Shown piece by piece: positions 30,107 to 41,948 of a stretch of 64,000 nucleotides of DNA. The position numbers and the translations under genes are program-made. Under the pieces are notes generated by a model. It did not search any database. It was not told where the DNA came from and saw only the letters and a list, made by a program, of their open reading frames with translations. Each line of letters begins with the position of its first letter. Position 1 is the stretch's first letter. The DNA comes from Deltaproteobacteria bacterium GWC2_55_46 (GTDB lineage Bacteria; Desulfobacterota; GWC2-55-46): the NCBI GenBank assembly GCA_001595385.3, contig LVEI03000001.1, positions 1,331,501-1,395,500 of the forward strand, given 5' to 3'.

Positions 30107-30571
30107 TTGAGGCTTTCCACAAAAGGACAATACGCGGTGCGGGCGATGGTCAATCTGGCCTGCCACTCCGGCGAAAGACCGGTGACCTTAAAGGGTATTT
30201 CGGCTGAGGAAGGGATATCTTTATCCTATCTTGAACAGCTCTTCGTGAAGCTCAGGAAAGGCAGGATAGTCAAAAGCGTCCGGGGGCCTGGCGGAGGGTA
30301 CGTGCTGGCAAAAGACGCGTCCCTCATAAGCGTGGGCGAGATAATAGCCGTGGTAGAAGAACCGCTTAACCCTGTGGCCTGCCTTGACGAAGATTCCGCC
30401 GGGTGCGACAGGGCCACGCGCTGCACCACCCAGCGTGTATGGAAGTGTCTTGCGGAAAAGATCGCCGAGTTTCTAAACTCGGTTTCCATAGATGACCTGA
30501 GCAGGGAGGCCAACGCCTTAAAGAACGGCCAGCCGCGCGTGAACGCGGACCTCTGCGGCTTAACTGAATAA
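30107..30571 (+). CDS. iscR: Rrf2-family iron-sulfur regulator IscR
   Basis: 154 residues from TTG 30107, with GAGG six bases upstream; LRLSTKGQYAVRAM is the standard IscR opening. The winged helix spans 1-75 with the recognition segment SLSYLEQLFVKLRKGRIVKSVRGPGGGY. Three cysteines in CLDEDSAGCDRATRC are the [2Fe-2S] ligands. Senses Fe-S sufficiency and represses its own operon. Directly followed by iscS and then iscU; no iscA, hscA, hscB or fdx in this window. Confidence 0.92.
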   Translation: MRLSTKGQYAVRAMVNLACHSGERPVTLKGISAEEGISLSYLEQLFVKLRKGRIVKSVRGPGGGYVLAKDASLISVGEIIAVVEEPLNPVACLDEDSAGCDRATRCTTQRVWKCLAEKIAEFLNSVSIDDLSREANALKNGQPRVNADLCGLTE

Positions 30572-30590
30572 TAACGGAGGCTTGAAGAAA

Positions 30591-31760
30591 TTGAAGAGGA
30601 TCTACTTCGACCACAACGCGACTACCCCTGTGCTTGATGAGGTATTCGATGCCATGGTGCCGTTCCTGAAAGAGCAGTGGGGCAACCCGTCCTCGATACA
30701 CTGGGCTGGAAGGGGCACGAAGAAGGCTTTGGAGGATGCCAGAGAAAAGGTATGCGCCCTCCTTAACTGCGCCCCCCTTGAGCTCATATTCACAGGCTCC
30801 GGCACGGAGGGCGACAATCACGCCATTAAAGGGCTTGCCTGGGCCAAGAAGGACAAGGGCAACCACATAATAACCACCAAGGTAGAGCACCCGGCGGTGC
30901 TCAACACCTGCAAGCACCTCCAGAAGGAGGGCTTTGAGGTGACCTGTCTCGACGTTGACAAGTACGGGCTTATAAGCCTCGACGAGCTCAAGGCCGCCAT
31001 AACGCCCAAGACCATACTTATAACGGTCATGTTCGCTAACAACGAAACCGGCGTCCTCTTCCCCATAAAGGAGATAGGCGCGATAGCGAAAGAAAAGGGC
31101 ATCGCCTTCCATACCGATGCCGTGCAGGCGGCTGGAAAGATAAAGATAGACGTGCAGGACCTGAACGTCGACCTCCTCACCATCTCCGGCCACAAGCTCT
31201 ACGGCCCCAAGGGAGTGGGGGCGCTTTACGTGAAGCGTGGCACCAGGCTCGTGCCCCTCATCCACGGCGGCCACCACGAGAGGAACAGGAGGGGCGGCAC
31301 CGAGAACGTGGCCGGCATAATCGGCATGGGCAAGGCCGCCGAGGTGGCGCTCCGCGATATGGACAGGGAGATAGCGCACCTTACCGTCCTTCGTGACAGG
31401 CTTGAGAAGGGCATGGCCGAGCGTGTCCCGCACATAATGGTGAACGGGGCGCCAGACAAGAGGCTCGCTAACACGGCGAACATCTCCTTCGAGTTCGTCG
31501 AGGGCGAATCGCTCCTTCTGAACCTTGACATGAAGGGCATAGCGGCCTCAAGCGGCTCTGCCTGCACCTCAGGAAGCCTTGAGCCTTCCCATGTGCTTGT
31601 CTCAATGGGACTAAGCCACGAGCTTTCACACGGCTCCGTGAGGTTCAGCCTCGGCAAATCCAATACGGCCGAGGAGATAGACTACCTTTTAGAGATAATG
31701 CCGCCCATAGTGGAGCGGATGAGGTCCATGTCCCCGCTATATGCCGGGGCGGCGAAGTAG
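30591..31760 (+). CDS. iscS: Cysteine desulfurase
   Basis: 389 residues from TTG 30591. GGAGG (30576-30580) stands ten bases before it and only one base before an upstream TTG (30582), so the later start is preferred. PLP enzyme that releases sulfur from cysteine onto IscU. Visible: YFDHNATTP, HTDAVQAAGKI, the PLP-lysine motif SGHKLYGPKG and the active cysteine loop SSGSACTSGSLEPSHVL. It lies 20 bp after iscR. Confidence 0.95.
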   Translation: MKRIYFDHNATTPVLDEVFDAMVPFLKEQWGNPSSIHWAGRGTKKALEDAREKVCALLNCAPLELIFTGSGTEGDNHAIKGLAWAKKDKGNHIITTKVEHPAVLNTCKHLQKEGFEVTCLDVDKYGLISLDELKAAITPKTILITVMFANNETGVLFPIKEIGAIAKEKGIAFHTDAVQAAGKIKIDVQDLNVDLLTISGHKLYGPKGVGALYVKRGTRLVPLIHGGHHERNRRGGTENVAGIIGMGKAAEVALRDMDREIAHLTVLRDRLEKGMAERVPHIMVNGAPDKRLANTANISFEFVEGESLLLNLDMKGIAASSGSACTSGSLEPSHVLVSMGLSHELSHGSVRFSLGKSNTAEEIDYLLEIMPPIVERMRSMSPLYAGAAK

Positions 31761-31765
31761 CGGAT

Positions 31766-31796
31766 TTGACAACAATTCCAAAGTCGGATATATAAT
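31766..31796 (+). promoter_or_regulatory. Internal promoter before iscU
   Basis: TTGACA (31766-31771) followed by TATATA at 17 bp (31789) or TATAAT at 19 bp (31791-31796). It would allow iscU to be expressed separately from iscRS. Half-site-like TTGAC and AGTCGGATAT flank the spacer, but their spacing does not fit an IscR box. Confidence 0.5.
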
Positions 31797-31842
31797 AAAG
31801 AAAAGTGTTTTTTTACCAATCAACAGCCAATAGGAGAGGGAT

Positions 31843-32223
31843 ATGTATAGCGAAAAAGTGATGGACCACTTCTCAAACCCCAGGAACGTGGGCGAGGTCG
31901 AGGACGCGAACGGCACCGGCACGGTAGGGAACCCTGCCTGCGGAGATATAATGAAGCTCAGCATAAAGGTCGAGAACGACGTGATTCAAGAGGTAAAGTT
32001 CAAGACCTTCGGCTGCGGCGCGGCCATAGCCACAAGCTCTATGATAACCGAGCTTGTAAAGGGCAAGGGCCTTGTCGAGGCGGAGCAGATATCGAACAAC
32101 ACGGTAGCGGAGGCCCTCGACGGGTTGCCGCCCGTCAAGATGCACTGCTCGAACCTTGCCGCAGACGCCCTCCACGCGGCGATCGAGGACTATAAGAAGA
32201 AACAGACAGAACCGGCAAGGTAA
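31843..32223 (+). CDS. iscU: Iron-sulfur cluster scaffold protein IscU
   Basis: 126 residues. Three conserved cysteines are present in GNPACGDIMKL, FKTFGCGAAIATSSM and MHCSNLAADAL, together with the assembly aspartate in ACGD. The LPPVK motif needed for HscA contact appears as GLPPVKMHC. AGGAGAGGG lies upstream. A terminator follows the stop. Confidence 0.95.
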   Translation: MYSEKVMDHFSNPRNVGEVEDANGTGTVGNPACGDIMKLSIKVENDVIQEVKFKTFGCGAAIATSSMITELVKGKGLVEAEQISNNTVAEALDGLPPVKMHCSNLAADALHAAIEDYKKKQTEPAR

Positions 32224-32318: not shown

Positions 32319-33113
32319 CTACTTCATCGCGGACCAGAAGCCGAGTATCTTGATCCAGTTGCCCTCCTTTTTTATATCCCTGAACCCCGCCTGCTCAAGA
32401 TACGCGCCGATATTGCCCCGCACCTGTTCTATGGTGTTCGGCCATAGTTTAAGGGGCCATGCGATTATCCACCATAAGGGTGTCACCGGCCTGTCTATAT
32501 CTACCAGTAAAAGGCGCCCATTGGGCTTAAGCACCCGCCTTACCTCGGCAAGGCCCCTGATCTTGACATCCGGCGGAAGGTGATGGAGCATCAGGCTTGA
32601 AAGGGCGATGTCAAAGCTATTGTCGTCGAAAGGCAGATCTTCCATGGCCGCGACCCTGAACTCTGCCCTGCTCTTCTCCCTTCCCGCGCTTATCCTTGCC
32701 TCCCCTATCATGGCCGGGGCAGGGTCGATGCCTGCCGCGCTCCCGTCAGGTCCGGCTTTTTGAGCCGCCATCCTTGTAAGTACCCCTGTGCCGCAGCCCA
32801 CGTCCAGCACCTTATGCCCGGGCCTTATATCAGCAAGCTCCACCGTCTTTTCCCTGAAGACCCTGCCAAGGCCAATTAGCGGGCAGTACCAGTCGTAGAA
32901 GGGGGCAACCCAGTTGAGCGCCATGCCCCTGGTTGGCGCGGGAGGCTCCTTTGAGAGCGAGCGCACCCTGATAACGCCGTAGGCGATGATCACAGGGCAG
33001 ACTATAAGTAAAGAGACGAGGATAGATGAGAGGATAGAGAAACCCAGGGCGAGAAAGGCCAAGACCGCCGCCAGGAGCATGAGCGGCGGGCAGAGCCAGA
33101 AGAGCCTTTGCAT
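32319..33113 (-). CDS. Membrane-anchored class I SAM-dependent methyltransferase
   Basis: 264 residues. Two hydrophobic segments (about 5-48) precede a methyltransferase domain with motif I VLDVGCGTGVLTRMA, then AAGIDPAPAMI, MEDLPFDDNSFD and ALSSLMLHHLPPD (UbiE/Methyltransf_11 style). Substrate not identifiable. Begins one base after the CopA stop, so it is the last gene of the copper cluster transcript. Confidence 0.82.
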   Translation of the reverse strand: MQRLFWLCPPLMLLAAVLAFLALGFSILSSILVSLLIVCPVIIAYGVIRVRSLSKEPPAPTRGMALNWVAPFYDWYCPLIGLGRVFREKTVELADIRPGHKVLDVGCGTGVLTRMAAQKAGPDGSAAGIDPAPAMIGEARISAGREKSRAEFRVAAMEDLPFDDNSFDIALSSLMLHHLPPDVKIRGLAEVRRVLKPNGRLLLVDIDRPVTPLWWIIAWPLKLWPNTIEQVRGNIGAYLEQAGFRDIKKEGNWIKILGFWSAMK

Positions 33114-33114
33114 A

Positions 33115-35424
33115 TCAGCTTACCTCTATCTTCAACGCCTTCAAGGTCGCCGAGTTGGCCACGACGGAAAGTGAGCTTAAGGCCATGGCGGCGGCGGCGA
33201 TGATAGGGTTAAGAAAGCCGAGGGCCGCTATCGGGATGCCTATCGAGTTATAGATGAAGGCCCAGAAGAGGTTCTGCTTTATCTTCCTCATCGTAGCCCT
33301 TGAGAGCTTTATACCGGCAAAGACATCCCTTACGTCGTCCTTGACGAGGATTATACCCCCGGTCTCCTTTGCCACGTCAGAGCCGCTGCCGATGGCTATG
33401 CCGATATCGGCCTGGGCCAGGGCCGGGGCGTCGTTTATGCCGTCGCCGACCATTGCCACAACCTTGCCCTCGGACTGAAGCCTCTTTACCACCCCGACCT
33501 TCTCGCCCGGAAGCACATTGGCTATGACCTTATCTATCCCGGCCTGTCCGGCCACCGAGCGCGCCGTCCTTTCGTTATCGCCGGTAAGCATTATGACCTC
33601 AACGCCCTCCCTCTTAAGGGCGCTTACGGCGGCTATCGAGCTCTCCTTCAGGGTGTCCGCAACGGCCACTATCCCCATTACCGTGGCGCCCCTCGCAAGG
33701 AGCATCGCTGTCTTGCCCTGTTCCTCAAGCGCCTTCATGCTATCCTCAACCCCGGCTATATCGACCCCATTCGCCTCCATGAGCCTCCTGTTGCCGAAAA
33801 AGACAGTATCGCCCCTGAAGGCCACCTTTACCCCGTACCCGGGGACAGCCTCGAAGGAATCCGCGTCCGGGACCACTGCCTTATCCATCGCTGCGGCCCT
33901 TACTACAGCCTCGCCCAACGGGTGCTCCGAGCCCTTCTCTGCCATGGCGGCGTACATGAGGACGGTCTCAGTACTGGAATCGAACGGCACGATATCGGTT
34001 ACTGAAGGCTCGCCCCGGGTGAGGGTCCCGGTCTTGTCAAAGACAATAGTAGTGAGCTTCTGCGCCCTCTCCAGGTACTCGCCGCCTCTTATGAGAATGC
34101 CGGCCTCGGCCCCTTTTCCGACCCCGACCATGAGGGCAGCGGGGGTCGCTATGCCGAGGGCGCATGGGCATGCTATGATCAACACAGCTATAAAAGCCAA
34201 TAACCCCTGCGGGAAATTACCAGTCGCCCACCACCCGAAGAAAGATAGAAAGGCCACTGTAACAACAAAAACGACGAAATAGCCGGAGACCTTGTCTGCT
34301 ATCCTCTGTATGGGGGCTGATGAGGCCTGCGCCTCCTCGACCATTTTGATTATCTGGCTGATTGTGGTCTCTGCGCCGACCCTTACGGCCTTGAACTTGA
34401 GCATGCCCACCTTGTTCATGGTGGCGCCTATGACGCTGTCCCCCGGTTTCTTATCGACCGGCATGGACTCGCCGCTTATCATCTTCTCATCCACTGCGGA
34501 AGAGCCCTCCATTACAAGACCGTCAGCCGGTATCTTCTCGCCTGGCCTCACTACCACAATTTCACCGACCTGGACCATCTCAGCGGGTATCTCCATCTCC
34601 TGAGCGTCCCTTATGACCCTCGCCACCTGCGGCTTCAAGTCAAGTAGCTTCCTTACTGCCGCCGAGGACTTCTTCTTTATTATCTCCTCCATGTACTTTC
34701 CGAGGAGGACAAAGGCGATGATAACCGCCGACACCTCGAAGTAGACGTCCCTCTCCTCGACCTTGACAGGCAATATGTCAGGGGCGAATATGACTATTAC
34801 GGAATAGAAGTACGCTACCGTCGTGCCCAGGGCTATGAGGAAATCCATGTTTATCATCCTGTTCCTCACGGCGTTATAGGCACCCTTGTAAAAGCTCCAC
34901 CCGCCGATGAACTGTACGGGGGTTACAAGTATGAAGAGCCAGACGCCCCATGTGAACCAGGGGAGCTGCGGTATCGGCGCCCAGGTGAGTATGGTCGCGC
35001 CGGCGGCGAGGCCAAGGAAAAAGGCGGCGCGGAGGATGGCAAGGACGAGGACCCCTGCCAGGGCGATAGAGACCCGCCTCTTCATCTTCTTAAGCTCTTC
35101 TTCAGGAGACTCGAAGGTCCTTAGGCACCCGTCGCTGCAGAAGTAGAAGGTCCTTCCGCCAAGCTCCTTCTTTAAAGATTTTCCCTTATCGACCACCATG
35201 CCGCAGATAGGGTCCTTCGCGGTATCGCTGGCGCCTGGGGCCGCCTCTTCCATCCCGGTCTTCATGCCGGAGGGCTTGCCTGCCCCGAGGTAGCTCGAAG
35301 GGTCTCTATCGAATTTTTCTTTGCACTTGAGAGAGCAGAAATAGACCGTCTCGCCCTTGTGCTCGCTCTTTCCAGCAGACATCGACGGGTCTACTTCCAT
35401 CCCGCATACCGGGTCTTTTGGCAT
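33115..35424 (-). CDS. copA: Copper-type P1B ATPase with two N-terminal YHS/TRASH domains
   Basis: 769 residues from ATG 35424, where AGGAG lies nearby; the frame starts ten codons earlier. The N-terminus has two YHS-type metal sites ([19 protein letters not shown] and [19 protein letters not shown]) instead of an HMA domain. Then eight membrane segments, the ion path [10 protein letters not shown], the phosphorylation loop DKTGTLT and the hinge [29 protein letters not shown] in TM7 and MALSSLS in TM8 fit the Cu(I)-exporting P1B-1 group. It expels copper from the cytoplasm. Confidence 0.93.
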
Positions 35425-35456
35425 TTGCCTCTCCTTCCCTAAGCTCTTCCCCATCC

Positions 35457-35948
35457 TTAAAGGCTCTTCCTTACGCCTCCCTTAAGGTCGAACCTGAAGA
35501 CCCTTTCAGGGACCCCGGCCACGTCCTTTATTACAAGCTCGACGTAATCAGAGCCAGCGAGGTCTGCGCCCCTGAACTCGATGGTTGCCTCCCTGTGGTG
35601 GCCTGAACCCTTGGAAGAGACAAGCCCTGCCGCATGCTCGCCGCCAGTTTGGTCACGGAGCGCTACTATATCCTCGAACCTGTACCGGTCGAGCTCAACG
35701 GAGTGGGTATCGAGCACCACATTGAAGACAGGGGAGGCATTGCCGGGGTTATTATATGTCACCTTTGCCGTGACCCCGGCTGCCTCTGCTTCCATGGCAA
35801 GGGCCGCGCTCTCCCGCATCTGCCCCTTCTCTTCCATCTGGCCACCCATATGCTCTTTCATGTGCTCCATCATCTGCCCGTCCATCTGGGCAAAAGCGGC
35901 CTGAGGAAGAAGAGCTGCTGCGACGGCAGATAAGATAATACGGTACAT
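35457..35948 (-). CDS. Secreted Met-rich protein of the copper cluster
   Basis: 163 residues. Signal peptide ([20 protein letters not shown]) followed by a Met/His-rich stretch [18 protein letters not shown] that could bind Cu(I). The rest (about 55-163) looks like an all-beta domain with no recognised name. Lies 32 bp upstream of copA in the same direction. Probable periplasmic copper binding; the domain's own role is unknown. Confidence 0.75.
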
Positions 35949-35970
35949 AATGCGCCTCCATTCGATTTTT

Positions 35971-36603
35971 TTAACGCTTATTCATGAGCATGTCCTTTGC
36001 TACAAAGAAGACGGCGGTAAGCGCGCCAGCAAGAAAAAGGCCCACGCCAGGGGCAGCTATCACCGTTACCGAGGCCTCTGCCATCTCCGGGCCAAGGGAC
36101 GGGGTCCTGTAGCCCATCGCTATCCAGGCCAGCGGATAGATGAGGCCGCCGAGCCCTGCCATCGTGGAGGCGGCTATCTTTATCCAGCCACTGGCTGAGG
36201 TGAAAGCAAGGATAAAGGAAATAATAATAGCCCCAAGGCCGAGCCCCATCGCATGCAGATGGCCCCTGGTAAGGCGGGTATGGGTAAGCTCCGTCAAAGC
36301 GTCATTATGCCCTCCGCCGTGGCCATGGGCCTCCTGTGTAGAGACCGGCATAGCCTCTTTTTTCACGTGCATGTGCTCCGCACCGTTGTTGTGCGTGCGC
36401 CTTACTGCGGATTCTATCTGGTTTTCAGCGTTATGGCTGGCCTCTTGCTCGTGCAGCGGGACGACGGTTAAGCTGGCGGCCTCAAGGCTTGCATGCAAAC
36501 GCTCGTGGCCGAGCACGAGCCAGAAAGCCCAGCCTATGCCGAAAAGGATCCCAAGCAGTCCTATCAATATCCCGGGCCTTACAGGCCGTATGGAGTTCAT
36601 CAT
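35971..36603 (-). CDS. His-rich multi-pass membrane protein
   Basis: 210 residues. A membrane segment at about 12-31, a long polar loop with many histidines (HNNGAEHMHVKKEAM, EAHGHGGGHND), then three more hydrophobic segments from about 115 onward ending MLMNKR. Histidine spacing suggests metal contact in the periplasmic loop. No family recognised. Its start overlaps the stop of the next gene upstream (36600-36603), so the two are coupled. Confidence 0.75.
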   Translation of the reverse strand: MMNSIRPVRPGILIGLLGILFGIGWAFWLVLGHERLHASLEAASLTVVPLHEQEASHNAENQIESAVRRTHNNGAEHMHVKKEAMPVSTQEAHGHGGGHNDALTELTHTRLTRGHLHAMGLGLGAIIISFILAFTSASGWIKIAASTMAGLGGLIYPLAWIAMGYRTPSLGPEMAEASVTVIAAPGVGLFLAGALTAVFFVAKDMLMNKR

Positions 36604-36824
36604 CTTGCCTCTTTATTCTCCCCTTGTTTACCTTGATGCAAATCCTCTTTCAAACCTTCCGCGTTGCAGTCGGGCTGCTGGCATGGCTCCCCGGCCTCTT
36701 CCTTGACCATAGACCCTTCAGCATGCCCGTCCCTGTCATGGCCCCCCGGCATGCCGTGGTGGCCGCCCCAGACCAAGGCCCCTATAAGCATAAGCCCCAT
36801 CATGATCACCATTACTGTTCCCAT
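36600..36824 (-). CDS. Small membrane protein with His/Cys tail
   Basis: 74 residues. One hydrophobic segment (MGTVMVIMMGLMLIGALVWGG) followed by a soluble tail containing HHGMPGGHDRDGH and CQQPDC. AGGAG is 12 bases before the ATG. It overlaps the following His-rich membrane protein by four bases. One of several mini-proteins in the copper cluster; no named function. Confidence 0.65.
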   Translation of the reverse strand: MGTVMVIMMGLMLIGALVWGGHHGMPGGHDRDGHAEGSMVKEEAGEPCQQPDCNAEGLKEDLHQGKQGENKEAR

Positions 36825-36860
36825 TTTAAGATCATGCTCCTTTTAAGCCTTGCAGGCTTT

Positions 36861-37031
36861 TTAGCAGCCATGATGATCATCGCCTCCTTTCTCCTCCTTG
36901 CTCGCCTTACCCTCTTTTTCCTCTTTCTTCCCGTGAGAATGCCCGCCACCGCAGCAACCCCCTCCGCCACGGTGCATGAGGAACATGAAGACCACGATGA
37001 TAATGATGAATATTATCGTATTTACGTCCAT
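36861..37031 (-). CDS. 56-residue Gly/Cys/His-rich single-pass membrane protein
   Basis: Read by hand on the minus strand from ATG 37031 to TAA 36861-36863. One hydrophobic helix (NTIIFIIIIVVFMFLM) is followed by HRGGGGCCGGGHSHG, a lysine/glutamate-rich stretch and the end DDHHGC. The CC pair and histidines suggest metal binding. AGAGAG lies just upstream. It sits between the PEMT-like methyltransferase and the 74-residue protein, tightly packed in the same direction. Confidence 0.7.
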   Translation of the reverse strand: MDVNTIIFIIIIVVFMFLMHRGGGGCCGGGHSHGKKEEKEGKASKEEKGGDDHHGC

Positions 37032-37047
37032 ATCAACTCTCTCTCTT

Positions 37048-37686
37048 TTACTTTTTTGCCGCTATCTTCGGTATGAACATAGGGACCTCCTCCCTGTACC
37101 TCCTGTACGCCTCTCCGAAACCTCTTTCCATCTCCTCCTCCTCATTTTTAGCGAGCCTGTAATAGGCGAAGAGGAGGACAGGCCACATGACGGCTGTTAT
37201 GATAGTGGGCCATTGCACAAGAAGCCCTATGGTCACAAGGAAAAGCCCTGAGTACTGGGGATGGCGGACACGGCTGTAAAGGCCTGTAGTGACCAGCTCT
37301 CCCTTAGCTCCGTGCACCTGCCTCCATCCGGAGGCCATCACAAGGAAACCGGCTATCATGAGGCCGTTACTTACCAGGTGTATGAGCATGAGCATCGTTT
37401 GGCCGCCGCCGAGCAATGTGGCCCAGAGATGTCCGCTCTCGTGGGAAAAGGGATTAAGCGACGGGTACTTCGCCCCCAGTACGGCCGTAAGGATATAGAT
37501 CGTCAGGGGAAAGCCGTACATCTCGGTAAAGAGGGCGATTATGAAGGCGGTCGCCACCCCCATCGACCTCCATTCCCTCCTCTTTACTGGCGCGAGGAAG
37601 CTAAGGATAAAGAAGAGAAAGAAGAGGACGTTTACGATGACGAGCGACCAGAAGCCGTATCCGTAAGAGAAGCCGTCTCCGTGCAT
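37048..37686 (-). CDS. PEMT/ICMT-family integral membrane methyltransferase
   Basis: 212 residues with five or six membrane segments. The C-terminal signature VTTGLYSRVRHPQYSGLFL, followed by NEEEEMERGFGEAYRRYREEVPMFIP, is that of isoprenylcysteine carboxyl methyltransferase-like and phospholipid methyltransferase-like proteins. Bacterial members recur in metal-resistance islands; their substrate is usually unknown. Neighbours are the YHS protein (20 bp upstream) and the mini-protein downstream. Confidence 0.85.
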   Translation of the reverse strand: MHGDGFSYGYGFWSLVIVNVLFFLFFILSFLAPVKRREWRSMGVATAFIIALFTEMYGFPLTIYILTAVLGAKYPSLNPFSHESGHLWATLLGGGQTMLMLIHLVSNGLMIAGFLVMASGWRQVHGAKGELVTTGLYSRVRHPQYSGLFLVTIGLLVQWPTIITAVMWPVLLFAYYRLAKNEEEEMERGFGEAYRRYREEVPMFIPKIAAKK

Positions 37687-37706
37687 CGCCTACCTCTTGC
37701 GCGCGG

Positions 37707-37916
37707 TCAATGGCATTTTGGAGGCGCGCCCTTCGGCTCTTTTATTAACTTCTGCCACCATTTTTTGCCTGGCTCTGAGTGCCTGATGCCTTTTTCCAGC
37801 TCAAAACGGTCCTGACAGCTCTTTGAGCAGAAGTAAAAGGTCTCGTGCTCGCAATGGGTGTAGAGCTGGGCATCCTTTTCATCGACCTCCATGCCGCAAA
37901 CGGGGTCCTTTGCCAT
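37707..37916 (-). CDS. YHS-domain protein
   Basis: 69 residues. A single YHS/TRASH domain ([15 protein letters not shown], then TFYFCSKSCQDRFELEKG), then a basic tail with WWQKLIKEPKGAPPKCH. The same module appears twice in the nearby CopA. Probably a small cytoplasmic metal (copper) binding protein. AAAAGGAGG lies before the ATG, a strong ribosome site. Confidence 0.85.
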   Translation of the reverse strand: MAKDPVCGMEVDEKDAQLYTHCEHETFYFCSKSCQDRFELEKGIRHSEPGKKWWQKLIKEPKGAPPKCH

Positions 37917-38001
37917 AAACGCCTCCTTTTAAAGGCTCATGCGACCTTCCAGGGCAGAACCAATGCCTGCAATACCCACATTATATCCTTTTTTCGCGTC
38001 C

Positions 38002-38121
38002 TTAATGCCTGTGCTCCAAATGATTCCTATCCTGACTCTTTCCACTGCCTGAGCCGCCTTTCCCGGCGGTCGCGCATCCAGCCAGAAGGACTAAAAGTAT
38101 TAGGATAAGGGCCTTTCGCAT
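38002..38121 (-). CDS. 39-residue lipoprotein, first gene of the copper cluster
   Basis: Read by hand on the minus strand from ATG 38121 to TAA 38002-38004. The sequence is a lipoprotein signal (KALILILLVLLAGC, lipid-modified Cys at residue 16) and a short tail rich in Gly, Ser, Lys and His ending NHLEHRH. AAGGAG lies ten bases before the ATG. It is the first frame downstream of the dyad-controlled promoters. Such mini-lipoproteins are easy to overlook; a role in envelope metal handling is a guess. Confidence 0.6.
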   Translation of the reverse strand: MRKALILILLVLLAGCATAGKGGSGSGKSQDRNHLEHRH

Positions 38122-38190
38122 AAATACATTACTCCTTATTTGATTTCTGATTGCTATCGCTGCCATGGCTGAGGGGGGGGGGCGCCATCA

Positions 38191-38207
38191 TTCTACAAAT
38201 AGTAGAA
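38191..38207. promoter_or_regulatory. 17-bp dyad operator, copy 1
   Basis: TTCTACAAATAGTAGAA, a perfect 6-bp inverted repeat around AAATA. On the minus strand a TTGACA (38220-38215) stands nearby, so a repressor here would cover the spacer and weak -10 of a second promoter. A near-identical site is at 38268-38284. Confidence 0.7.
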
Positions 38208-38218
38208 CATATGCTGTC

Positions 38219-38239
38219 AAAAAAAGGCCTTTTAAGGCC
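38219..38239 (-). terminator. Short terminator-like hairpin between the two operators
   Basis: Minus strand: GGCCTTAAAAGGCC (38239-38226) followed by seven T (38225-38219). It lies just downstream of the predicted start of the promoter at 38262-38290. It could terminate the SHOCT-gene transcript or attenuate the copper operon. The stem is short, so strength is doubtful. Confidence 0.5.
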
Positions 38240-38261
38240 ATGAAACTCGCTAACTGATTTT

Positions 38262-38290
38262 ATAATATTCTACTATTCGTAGGATGTCAA
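38262..38290 (-). promoter_or_regulatory. Copper-cluster promoter with operator in the spacer
   Basis: Minus strand: TTGACA (38290-38285), then exactly 17 bp TCCTACGAATAGTAGAA (38284-38268), then TATTAT (38267-38262). The spacer is itself the second copy of the dyad seen at 38191-38207. A bound repressor would block RNA polymerase directly. The dyad loosely resembles BlaI/MecI/CopY-type sites; no such regulator is encoded in this window. Confidence 0.7.
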
Positions 38291-38332: not shown

Positions 38333-38572
38333 TCAAGCCCCTGAAATGTCTTTCTTTTTTTCAAGATACTCTTCTTTCGTGATCTCGCCCCTGGCATATC
38401 TTTCGTCGAGGATATCCATGGCCCGCTTCTCTATAATCTTATTCTTCCCAAGAAACGTGCCTATGAGCTTTACTATACCGATAATGACAAGGACCCATAT
38501 CGCGAGCCAGAAGAGCGCCCATAGCCAGTGATACGGGGGCGTCATCCAATGTTGCATCCAATCCATTCTCAT
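38333..38572 (-). CDS. SHOCT-domain small membrane protein
   Basis: 79 residues. One membrane helix (WLWALFWLAIWVLVIIGIVKLIG) followed by a C-terminal SHOCT motif (MDILDERYARGEITKEEYLEKKKDI). Often found near metal-efflux genes. Lies 18 bp after the DUF2231 gene on the same strand and just upstream of the copper-cluster promoter. Function unknown. Confidence 0.85.
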   Translation of the reverse strand: MRMDWMQHWMTPPYHWLWALFWLAIWVLVIIGIVKLIGTFLGKNKIIEKRAMDILDERYARGEITKEEYLEKKKDISGA

Positions 38573-38590
38573 GAGTGCTTGCCTTTATAG

Positions 38591-39085
38591 CTATTCCACA
38601 TCATGCTCATGCCCCTGCGCCTCAGCAGCCTTCACCCCAACGCCGTACTTGTATACCATCAGGCCGCCCTTGTCCGCGCCAATGGCCATTACTGCCGCGA
38701 TTATAAAGGCGACAGCCAGATGGAACAAACGCCCCTTTCTTGAAAAACGCCCCCTGGAATAGATACGCCATGCTGAAAGGAAGAGGCTTAAGGCGAGCAC
38801 GGTCAACCCAAGGTCCCTGTGCGTCAAAAGGACCGCGTGAGCCTCCTCTGAATGCTCTACCGTAGTCGCGGCCCATAGCCCTGCCAATACAGCCCCAAGC
38901 GCGCCTGCAGTACCCAGATAGAGCATCCAGTCAGCCGCAAACCTGAAGCTCTCCCTTCCTGTAAAAAAACTCAGCAGCTCCATCAACAGGAAGGAGTCAA
39001 GAAGGGCGATGGGGAAGTGCACTATGAGGGGATGTATATTCGGCATCTCTGAGATGCCCTGGAAGATACGGAAGAATATGTCCAT
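38591..39085 (-). CDS. DUF2231-type membrane protein
   Basis: 164 residues with four membrane segments. The opening MPNIHPLIVHFPIALLDSFLLMELL is the DUF2231 signature; further helices follow, and the tail has GHEHD histidines. Members often accompany cytochromes or copper proteins, and the conserved histidines suggest haem or metal binding. A possible promoter lies at 39120-39147. Confidence 0.85.
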   Translation of the reverse strand: MDIFFRIFQGISEMPNIHPLIVHFPIALLDSFLLMELLSFFTGRESFRFAADWMLYLGTAGALGAVLAGLWAATTVEHSEEAHAVLLTHRDLGLTVLALSLFLSAWRIYSRGRFSRKGRLFHLAVAFIIAAVMAIGADKGGLMVYKYGVGVKAAEAQGHEHDVE

Positions 39086-39368: not shown

Positions 39369-41948
39369 ATGCCTTCAAGATCACGCGGACATAATGAATC
39401 GGTATTCCTGCGCCTGCTCGCAGCCCTGGCCATCATTGCAGTGCTCCCCTGCGCGATTATCGGCTACGTCTTATACAGCATGAACAGGTCGGCTCATCTC
39501 GAACAGACCTCTGTCCTCCTTGACACCCTGGCGGCGGACCGCGAATTCACGACCCGTCTCCTGATAGAAAGGCGGCAGGTCTCGCTCGACCATCTCGCCA
39601 AAGACCCTGAAACGGCGCGCCTGGCCCGTGGGCTGTCGCCCGGGGGCAAGGCAGGCGATACCGTGGCCCTGCGGGAGATGGTGGAAAGGAGCACCTACTT
39701 TGCGGGGTTATCCGTAGTAGACCTGACAACAGGACGCCACCTGAGAGCTGGCACATTCCCGCAGAAGATAATCGAACGGGCCCTCAAGCTTAAAGAGCAA
39801 AGACCTTTTGTGCTCACCGAGACCCTGCCGGGCGGCGAGCGCGTGCTGCTCCTCGGCCAGGCGATCGAGCCCTGGAAGGACGGCAGCGCGCTCCTGCTGG
39901 CCCTGGGCAGGCTCAACACCTTCAATGAGCTATACAGGGACAACAGCATCCTGGGGACTACCGGGGAGAGCTTTCTGACTGATTCCAACGGGCTGGCGCT
40001 TACAACGCTTCGCTATTCTTACCACAGGGAAAGCCACCCTGTCGACGCCGCCGCCATGACAGACTGTCTTGCGGGCAATAGCGGATCGTTCATAATCACG
40101 CCAGACTATACCGGTGTGCCTACCGCCATGTCCTACAGGCCGGTACAGAGCTACGGCGGATGCGTGATGGTGCACATGCGCGCTTCAGAGGTCATGGCCA
40201 CCGTCAACGCCATGAGAAACATGATAATAGCCATTGTCGCCACTGTGATAACGGCTGTCACGTTGATGTCTTTTTTAGTGGGCCGGAAATTGCTGAGGCT
40301 CAACAATGAACGCGGCCTCCTTGAACAGGCACTGGCATGGCACGCCAGCCAGATGGAAGCCACGGTGGAAAAACGCACCGTTAAGCTTAAAGACGAGATA
40401 AAGGCGCGCATAGAGGCCGAGGGGAGGCTCCGGGAGAACGAGGCATTTCTCAAGAACATCGTCCATAACGTCCACGAGGCCATCTTCATGGTCAACGCCG
40501 AGCAAGGCGGCGCTTTCCGGCTGATGTGGTGGAACGCCAACGTCGATAAGATGCTCGGCATAAAGCCCGCGTTCGCGGCAGGCCTTTTGCTGCCGGACGT
40601 ATTCGGGCCGGATACAGGTGGGCGGCTTGAGGCTCGCTGCTCTGAGTGCGTCGATACCGGCTCCATCGACTATGAGGAGACGTTCAATACGCCCAACGGC
40701 CCCATGGTCCTCCTTACCACGCTGGCCCCGGTCAGGAACGCCGCAGGGCGCGTCGTCCAGATAATCTGCTCCGCGATGGACATAACCGAAAGGAAGAAGC
40801 TCGAAGGCGAGATGATAAAATCTCAGCAGCTTGACTCCCTCGGGGTCCTTGCCGGAGGCATAGCCCACGACTTCAACAACCTCCTTGCCGTAATACGGCT
40901 CAATATCTCCATATTGAAGCACAACGCCTCGCTGGACCCCGAAAGCCTTGAGATGATAGGCCTTGTGGAGAATTCGACTGCCCTGGCGGCAAACCTTACG
41001 AACCAGCTCCTGACCTTCGCGAAGGGCGGCAAGCCTGTAGTGAAGGCCGTCCCGGTGCGCGAATTCCTGAACGAGGTCGCCAATCTTTCCCTGAGGGGCA
41101 CAAAGACGGCCTGCAAACTCGACCTCGCCGAAGGGCTCTCAGACATAGAGGCGGACCGCGGACAGATGACGCAGGTCATAAACAACATGCTCATGAACGC
41201 GGACCAGGCCATGCCCGACGGAGGCATCGTTAAGCTCTCGGCAGAGGAGATCGAACTCACAGGGCTTGAAAAGGGCTTGCCCCTCAAGCGTGGGAGGTAC
41301 GTAAAGATAACCATAGAAGACCATGGCATCGGCATACCGGAAGAAAATCTATCGAGGGTCTTCGACCCGTATTTCACCACAAAAAAGAAGGGCAGCGGCC
41401 TCGGCCTTGCCAGCTCGTATTCGATAATAAAGAACCACAACGGCCATATCTCCGTAAGCTCCAGCGCCGGGCACGGCACTATATTCGAGATCCTCGTGCC
41501 TGCCTCGGCCACAAAGGCGCCTTCGGATATCCATGATACCGGCGGAGCCCTTATGACGCGGACCGGCAGGGTGCTTGTGATGGACGACGAGGAAGGCGTA
41601 AGGGCCTCGGTGCGAAAGGCCCTTGAATCACTCGGGTACGAGGTCGCGGATGCTTCCAACGGCCTTGAAGCCGTTAACAAATACAGGGAAGGCATGGATA
41701 ACGATTCTGCGTTCGATGCCGTCATCCTGGACCTCACGGTGCCTGTCGGCATGGGAGGAGAGGAGGCGGTCGCAAAGATTCTTGAGCTCGATCCCGCGGC
41801 AAAGGTCTTCGTCTCGAGCGGATATTCAAACACCTCTGTAATCGCTGATTTCAAAAGATACGGCTTCTGCGGCTTTTTGAAAAAGCCGTATGACGCATCC
41901 GAACTGGACAGGTCGCTGCATGCCGCTATCTCTGCTCAAAGGACATAA
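39369..41948 (+). CDS. Hybrid sensor histidine kinase with C-terminal receiver
   Basis: 859 residues. Membrane segment 15-37, an extracytoplasmic sensor region to about 280 (dCache-like), second membrane segment near 283-308, a PAS-like domain (about 355-475), and a dimerisation H-box GGIAHDFNNLLAV near residue 497. The ATPase boxes follow (ADRGQMTQVINNMLMNADQA, GIGIPEENLSRVFDPYFTTK, GSGLGLA). A receiver domain occupies about 735-859 with MDDEEG, the phospho-acceptor in VILDLTVP and lysine in FLKKPYD. Signal and output partner are unknown. The gene stands alone between the copper region and the Hyf-like operon. Confidence 0.9.
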   Translation: MPSRSRGHNESVFLRLLAALAIIAVLPCAIIGYVLYSMNRSAHLEQTSVLLDTLAADREFTTRLLIERRQVSLDHLAKDPETARLARGLSPGGKAGDTVALREMVERSTYFAGLSVVDLTTGRHLRAGTFPQKIIERALKLKEQRPFVLTETLPGGERVLLLGQAIEPWKDGSALLLALGRLNTFNELYRDNSILGTTGESFLTDSNGLALTTLRYSYHRESHPVDAAAMTDCLAGNSGSFIITPDYTGVPTAMSYRPVQSYGGCVMVHMRASEVMATVNAMRNMIIAIVATVITAVTLMSFLVGRKLLRLNNERGLLEQALAWHASQMEATVEKRTVKLKDEIKARIEAEGRLRENEAFLKNIVHNVHEAIFMVNAEQGGAFRLMWWNANVDKMLGIKPAFAAGLLLPDVFGPDTGGRLEARCSECVDTGSIDYEETFNTPNGPMVLLTTLAPVRNAAGRVVQIICSAMDITERKKLEGEMIKSQQLDSLGVLAGGIAHDFNNLLAVIRLNISILKHNASLDPESLEMIGLVENSTALAANLTNQLLTFAKGGKPVVKAVPVREFLNEVANLSLRGTKTACKLDLAEGLSDIEADRGQMTQVINNMLMNADQAMPDGGIVKLSAEEIELTGLEKGLPLKRGRYVKITIEDHGIGIPEENLSRVFDPYFTTKKKGSGLGLASSYSIIKNHNGHISVSSSAGHGTIFEILVPASATKAPSDIHDTGGALMTRTGRVLVMDDEEGVRASVRKALESLGYEVADASNGLEAVNKYREGMDNDSAFDAVILDLTVPVGMGGEEAVAKILELDPAAKVFVSSGYSNTSVIADFKRYGFCGFLKKPYDASELDRSLHAAISAQRT

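Follow-up and report, generated by a model that had tools for sequence, protein, structure and literature searches.

Bacterial copper detoxification is usually ascribed to CueR, CsoR, CopY or CusRS, the last being the two-component system that regulates CusCBA in Escherichia coli. The present analysis concerns a copper cluster of Deltaproteobacteria bacterium GWC2_55_46, located in a 64,000-nucleotide stretch of contig LVEI03000001.1 (positions 1,331,501 to 1,395,500; "the window" hereafter), and a 17-bp dyad repeated in front of it. Judged by genome comparison, this dyad is, with strong support, the operator of a BlaI-family repressor encoded ~574 kb away. CusCBA-type efflux genes would thus be a regulated target as in E. 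coli, with a repressor and a protease in place of the sensor kinase and response regulator.

The closest known system is PetR/PetP of Synechocystis sp. PCC 6803, in which a BlaI-type regulator, acting as both repressor and activator, and a neighbouring BlaR1-type membrane protease govern the exchange of plastocyanin and cytochrome c6, while copper lowers the level of the regulator (PMC7896320, PMC12292863, PMC10141476). The adjacency of the two genes is shared, whereas here the operators are spacer-embedded and the targets serve copper efflux and binding; control of petE/petJ was not encountered among the operators found, which lie at blaI, cusCBA, TRASH and cop genes. In the literature searched, the coverage of which was partial, there was no report of a BlaI-M56/BlaR1 pair controlling the efflux of copper or heavy metals; BlaR homologues without a known role have been noted in other phyla (PMC10141476).

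The BlaI/BlaR1 and MecI/MecR1 pairs of Staphylococcus aureus (PMC9834060) share with the present one the repressor fold, the M56 HExxH motif, the aligned cleavage-site positions and the adjacency of the genes. BlaR1 cleaves itself at S283-F284 and BlaI at N101-F102, and its loop EL1 is in contact with the external sensor until beta-lactam binding displaces it (PMC9834060). In the present protein, however, a short Cys/His tail replaces the penicillin-binding sensor domain, the equivalent of EL1 and the tail both bear cysteines, and the targets are copper genes. CopY/CopR repressors bind copper via their own C-terminal CxC motifs and recognise the palindrome KACANNTGTM (PMC7253601). They resemble the present repressor in superfamily (BlaI), in their copper genes and in the related palindromic form of the operator; the differences are the lack of CxC here and an operator of TACR-N3-YGTA instead of TACA-N2-TGTA.

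Operator sites and the predicted regulon

The promoter of the copper cluster (P1, 38262-38290, minus strand) consists of three abutting parts, namely a -35 hexamer TTGACA (38290-38285), the dyad TCCTACGAATAGTAGAA (38284-38268) and a -10 hexamer TATTAT (38267-38262), so that the dyad occupies the whole of a spacer of exactly 17 bp; the hexamers match at 11 of 12 positions in a promoter scan. A perfect second dyad, TTCTACTATTTGTAGAA, lies on the minus strand at 38207-38191, starting 60 bp past the end of the first (77 bp from centre to centre). Both elements had been described in an earlier note on this DNA, and both are present in the minus-strand sequence as described. When TTCTACNNNTNGTAGAA was searched in the window with up to two mismatches, only these two places were found (four strand matches; 0.73 expected by shuffling).

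A search of the whole 2.79-Mb genome for TTCTACNANTNGTAGAA, allowing one mismatch, gave just three places, i.e., the two window dyads and a third, perfect dyad at G000:C1:796907. The latter precedes cusCBA and lies 17 bases past the stop codon of a gene for an M56 (BlaR1-type) membrane protease; the genes after it encode, in this order, a small protein (YtkA-like by a weak match), a protein of the TolC type, CusB and CusA. The M56 gene in turn overlaps that of the sole BlaI-family (PF03965) protein of the genome (C1:795559-795981), which has a promoter of the same spacer-embedded design with two arm mismatches (TTGACT-TTCTATACATTGTCGAA-TAATAT). The operator of the copper cluster is assigned to BlaI because the sole blaI gene adjoins the third perfect dyad and cusCBA and has a spacer-embedded dyad in its own promoter. 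A further composite, TTGACA-CACTACGTTAAGTAGAA-TAATAT, is found just beyond the window at C1:1399034-1399050, ahead of the gene of a secreted TRASH-like protein. The predicted regulon in this genome, which is well supported by comparison, comprises blaI-M56, cusCBA, the gene of the secreted TRASH-like protein, and the window operon that runs from the lipoprotein through YHS, PEMT and the four small proteins to CopA. With one mismatch, TTCTACN5GTAGAA matches the genome at four other sites, which are counted as background: two fall inside long genes, and no copper gene is seen at the other two.

The earlier note had placed the copper cluster under a promoter-embedded operator of an unseen regulator, with no regulator gene nearby, and this stands: the dyad is not distributed at random in the genome, and the blaI gene is some 574 kb off. 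Its proposed search for a BlaI/CopY- or CsoR-type regulator was borne out in part, with exactly one BlaI-family protein beside a site; this protein falls below the CopY cut-off, and CsoR was not found in a search of the genome (no search for MerR-type regulators was made).

The operator sites are of two kinds. At type I sites (blaI, TRASH and P1 of the copper cluster) the dyad takes up the whole distance from -35 to -10. At type II sites, located upstream of cusCBA, a T6-7 tract and TTG stand right ahead of the dyad, and the TAGAA of the 3' arm follows 17 bp further on, about where a -10 element would lie; among 25 loci, positions -15 to -10 are T in at least 96% and position -9 is G in 92%. 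The constant distance between this tract and the dyad can be seen at L041 6880-6925 and its equivalents in 24 other loci; a weak -35 element, curvature and pausing are candidate roles for it. The second operator of the window (38190-38220, minus strand) shares this layout, since its dyad is also preceded by a T tract, the end of which forms TTGACA at 38220-38215. TAGAAT at 38195-38190, from the 3' arm, is a possible -10 element with a 19-bp spacer from this TTGACA, and the site may thus serve as a promoter. Two related loci (L118 and L089) carry a TRASH gene in between their two sites and, after the second, a short lipoprotein similar to the 39-residue one of the window; the window's dyad pair therefore seems to have this layout minus the TRASH gene. 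The genome does have a TRASH orthologue under a site of its own, ~29 kb from the window's dyads, and a gene may have been lost from between the two dyads.

The operator is shared among relatives. Of the family's 30 genomes, 26 have a BlaI orthologue, and a search of ~0.9 Mb of relatives' loci for TTG[AT]C[AT] followed by the 17-bp dyad (up to three mismatches) gave 45 sites, 41 of them with a good -10 element, compared with one and none for two control palindromes. Taken together, 83 sites yield the consensus TTCTACRnnnYGTAGAA. The same composite is present at the blaI promoters of relatives. Ten further composite promoters were examined, eight of which lead into TRASH, YHS, YHS-CopA or HMA-CopA genes and one into a protein like the 56-residue Cys/His protein of the window. 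In G013 (L089), regulator, cusCBA, TRASH and PEMT copper genes form a single locus with dyads at every step. Of 395 genomes of the phylum, 15 contain the pattern TTGACW-TTCTACn5GTMGAA-TA with no more than one mismatch. All of them are among the 16 that encode this type of M56 protein, and the 379 genomes without this protein lack the pattern; the sixteenth, G273, carries a diverged dyad at the same promoter position (L164). A scan of named genomes with such M56 proteins returned seven relatives, mostly metagenome-assembled genomes labelled "Deltaproteobacteria".

The repressor and the membrane protease

The repressor belongs to the BlaI family, with a PF03965 winged-helix domain (78.8 bits against a curated cut-off of 22.6) and matches to the structures 1sd4 and 1okr. 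Its nearly invariant S107 and invariant F108 align with the Asn-Phe pair of MecI/BlaI. Membership of CopY/TcrY was considered and ruled out, since the protein scores 43.1 bits against TIGR02698, below the equivalog cut-off of 121.95, and no CxC motifs occur at the C-terminus in 16 aligned orthologues; its single cysteine is not conserved among orthologues either.

The protease is of the M56 family (PF05569, 44.6 bits against a cut-off of 31; all 18 members match) and is not a beta-lactam receptor. It comprises N-terminal transmembrane segments, HExxH with a distant Glu, a C-terminal transmembrane segment and a tail of about 25-45 residues, and its profile matches residues 154-325 of BlaR1 (8exp). 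No penicillin-binding (beta-lactam) sensor domain was found in it, with only a tail of about 40 residues in that place, and it scores 38 bits against the cut-off of 400 for blaR1_generic. H139, E140, H143 and E180 are invariant, and the positions aligned with the BlaR1 autocleavage site are mostly Ser-Ile or Ser-Phe. In 18 sequences the tail motif C-x4-C-x2-H...C-x2-H-C is kept with C269, C274, H277, C284, H287, C288 and H293 invariant, as are two cysteines, C37 and C44, of the loop that joins the first transmembrane segments. Hydropathy and comparison with BlaR1 place the tail probably on the periplasmic side. Cys-rich tails also occur in relatives at order and class level.

Second BlaI-M56 pairs of order-level relatives (L165 664-2128, L166 1028-2439) have tails spaced otherwise (CNHxYC...C...C...C) and no clear dyad promoter; these are perhaps sensors of another metal.

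Proposed mechanism and competing explanations

In the mechanism proposed, BlaI would sit on the dyads and block the promoters when metal is absent; since the type I operator fills the -35/-10 spacer, the bound repressor should exclude RNA polymerase. Cu(I) or Ag(I) outside the cytoplasm would bind the M56 protein at its Cys/His tail, perhaps jointly with the Cys pair of the first external loop, and thereby activate its cytoplasmic zinc protease, which would cut BlaI at the conserved Ser107-Phe108 bond and derepress the efflux and sequestration genes (CusCBA, CopA, YHS/TRASH and the small His/Met/Cys proteins). Taken as a whole, i.e., operator, regulon and metal-triggered cleavage of BlaI, this scheme is considered quite probable, although the identity of the metal, its sensing by the tail and the proteolysis are inferred. 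Copper or silver is the likely signal, because the CusA is closest to that of E. coli (1266 bits over the full length vs. 574 for ZneA) and the CopA, with its copper-type CPC motif, scores above the cut-off of TIGR01511. The broader proposal, that throughout the class a ~40-residue Cys4-His3 tail has replaced the penicillin-binding domain of a BlaR1-type receptor and forms with the loop Cys pair a periplasmic Cu(I)/Ag(I) switch leading to repressor cleavage and a copper-detoxification regulon, is favoured with rather less confidence.

Several observations weigh against the proposed mechanism. The P1 dyad carries a single mismatch in its arms; of the pore methionine positions of CusA, two are kept and the third is not; and one of the ten further composite promoters (L207) leads to genes with no evident tie to copper. 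Dyads are present in G014 and G023, but BlaI was not found in these two genomes, the assemblies of which are both incomplete. In the genus-mate G027 (C4:39405-39806; L066, L199) the dyads are intact and the blaI frame holds two stops, so that the gene is either frameshifted or misassembled. Furthermore, the AlphaFold model of the M56 protein, built from six sequences, is poor (predicted local distance difference test score 50, predicted template modelling score 0.32), and the contact between loop and tail is not readable from it.

The same operator and repressor might instead respond to an inducer other than periplasmic copper or silver, such as another soft metal, a thiol or redox signal or envelope stress, sensed by the Cys/His tail. 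A tail of Cys4-His3 composition is able to bind various soft metals or to form disulfides, and the metal is identified solely through the target genes; as these encode CusCBA, a copper-type P1B ATPase and YHS and TRASH proteins, such an inducer is thought unlikely. It is less likely still that BlaI senses copper itself in the manner of CopY, with the M56 protease as an accessory: the repressor does belong to the same superfamily and reaches 43 bits against TIGR02698, but this is far from the cut-off of 122 bits, the C-terminal CxC motifs are missing and the lone Cys is not conserved. The earlier note's suggestion of a BlaI/CopY- or CsoR-type regulator is thereby refined to a non-CopY BlaI repressor paired with a protease.

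An action of the dyad as an RNA hairpin, in attenuation or translational control, and not as a DNA operator appears very improbable. TTCTAC-N5-GTAGAA can fold into a 6-bp hairpin, type II dyads abut the Shine-Dalgarno sequence, and between the window's two dyads lies a terminator-like GGCCTTAAAAGGCC hairpin followed by T7 (38226-38239, minus strand), which is possibly an attenuator. Nevertheless, type I dyads are not transcribed from their own promoter because they are located between -35 and -10, and the letters themselves are conserved over 83 sites, beyond mere pairing.

If the proposed mechanism of metal-triggered BlaI cleavage is true, the idea of a copper-activated protease, known from the switching of cyanobacterial electron carriers, would extend to detoxification in another phylum. 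In this genome, where CsoR was not found and BlaI is not CopY-like, sensing appears to fall to a membrane protease whose metal-binding tail is minimal, and a receptor with a sensor of ~40 residues would provide a simple test case for transmembrane signalling by BlaR1-family proteases. Several uncharacterised membrane and secreted proteins can, moreover, be tied to copper handling through the small regulon that the operator consensus defines.

Genes of the copper cluster and its surroundings

All genes of the cluster lie on the minus strand. The first past the second dyad encodes a 39-residue lipoprotein with the lipobox LAGC (38002-38121); the earlier note had missed it, and its list of a YHS protein, a PEMT-type protein and four small membrane or secreted proteins is otherwise as described. 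Between the second dyad and this gene runs a stretch of ten C on the minus strand (38173-38182), possibly prone to slippage or else an artefact of the assembly. Then follow a YHS-domain protein of 69 residues (37707-37916; PF04945, 8.6e-09) and a PEMT/isoprenylcysteine-methyltransferase-like membrane protein of 212 residues (37048-37686; PF04191, 7.8e-07; PF04140, 1.5e-06).

The four small proteins comprise a 56-residue protein with one transmembrane segment and the motif CCGGGHSHG (36861-37031), a resembling protein of which sits under a dyad in L208; a 74-residue His/Met protein, also with one transmembrane segment (36600-36824), with a 52% identical relative in the cluster of G003; a 210-residue membrane protein with a His-rich loop (35971-36603), kept in 29 of 30 genomes of the family; and a 163-residue secreted Met/His-rich protein (35457-35948). 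Pfam and NCBIfam searches returned no family for any of the four, in agreement with the earlier view that several of the proteins belong to none. The YHS protein, the PEMT protein and the YHS-bearing CopA are all of known kinds. The last, a CopA-type P1B ATPase with the CPC motif (33115-35454; PF00122; TIGR01511, 584 bits against a cut-off of 397), has two N-terminal YHS domains (PF04945) and no HMA match in the Pfam search, as had been noticed earlier. A UbiE/ArsM-like methyltransferase gene (32319-33113), which comes after CopA in relatives as well, is probably the last of the operon.

Directly upstream of P1 lie genes of SHOCT-domain and DUF2231 membrane proteins (38333-39085), and in G003 (L046) SHOCT protein genes likewise come before the dyad promoter. 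The cluster is adjoined by a divergent gene of a large sensor histidine kinase with a receiver-like C-terminus (39369-41948), for which no copper link was seen. On the other side, at 30107-32223, an Rrf2/IscR-like regulator, a cysteine desulfurase and an IscU-like scaffold stand in a row and constitute an ordinary Fe-S assembly operon.

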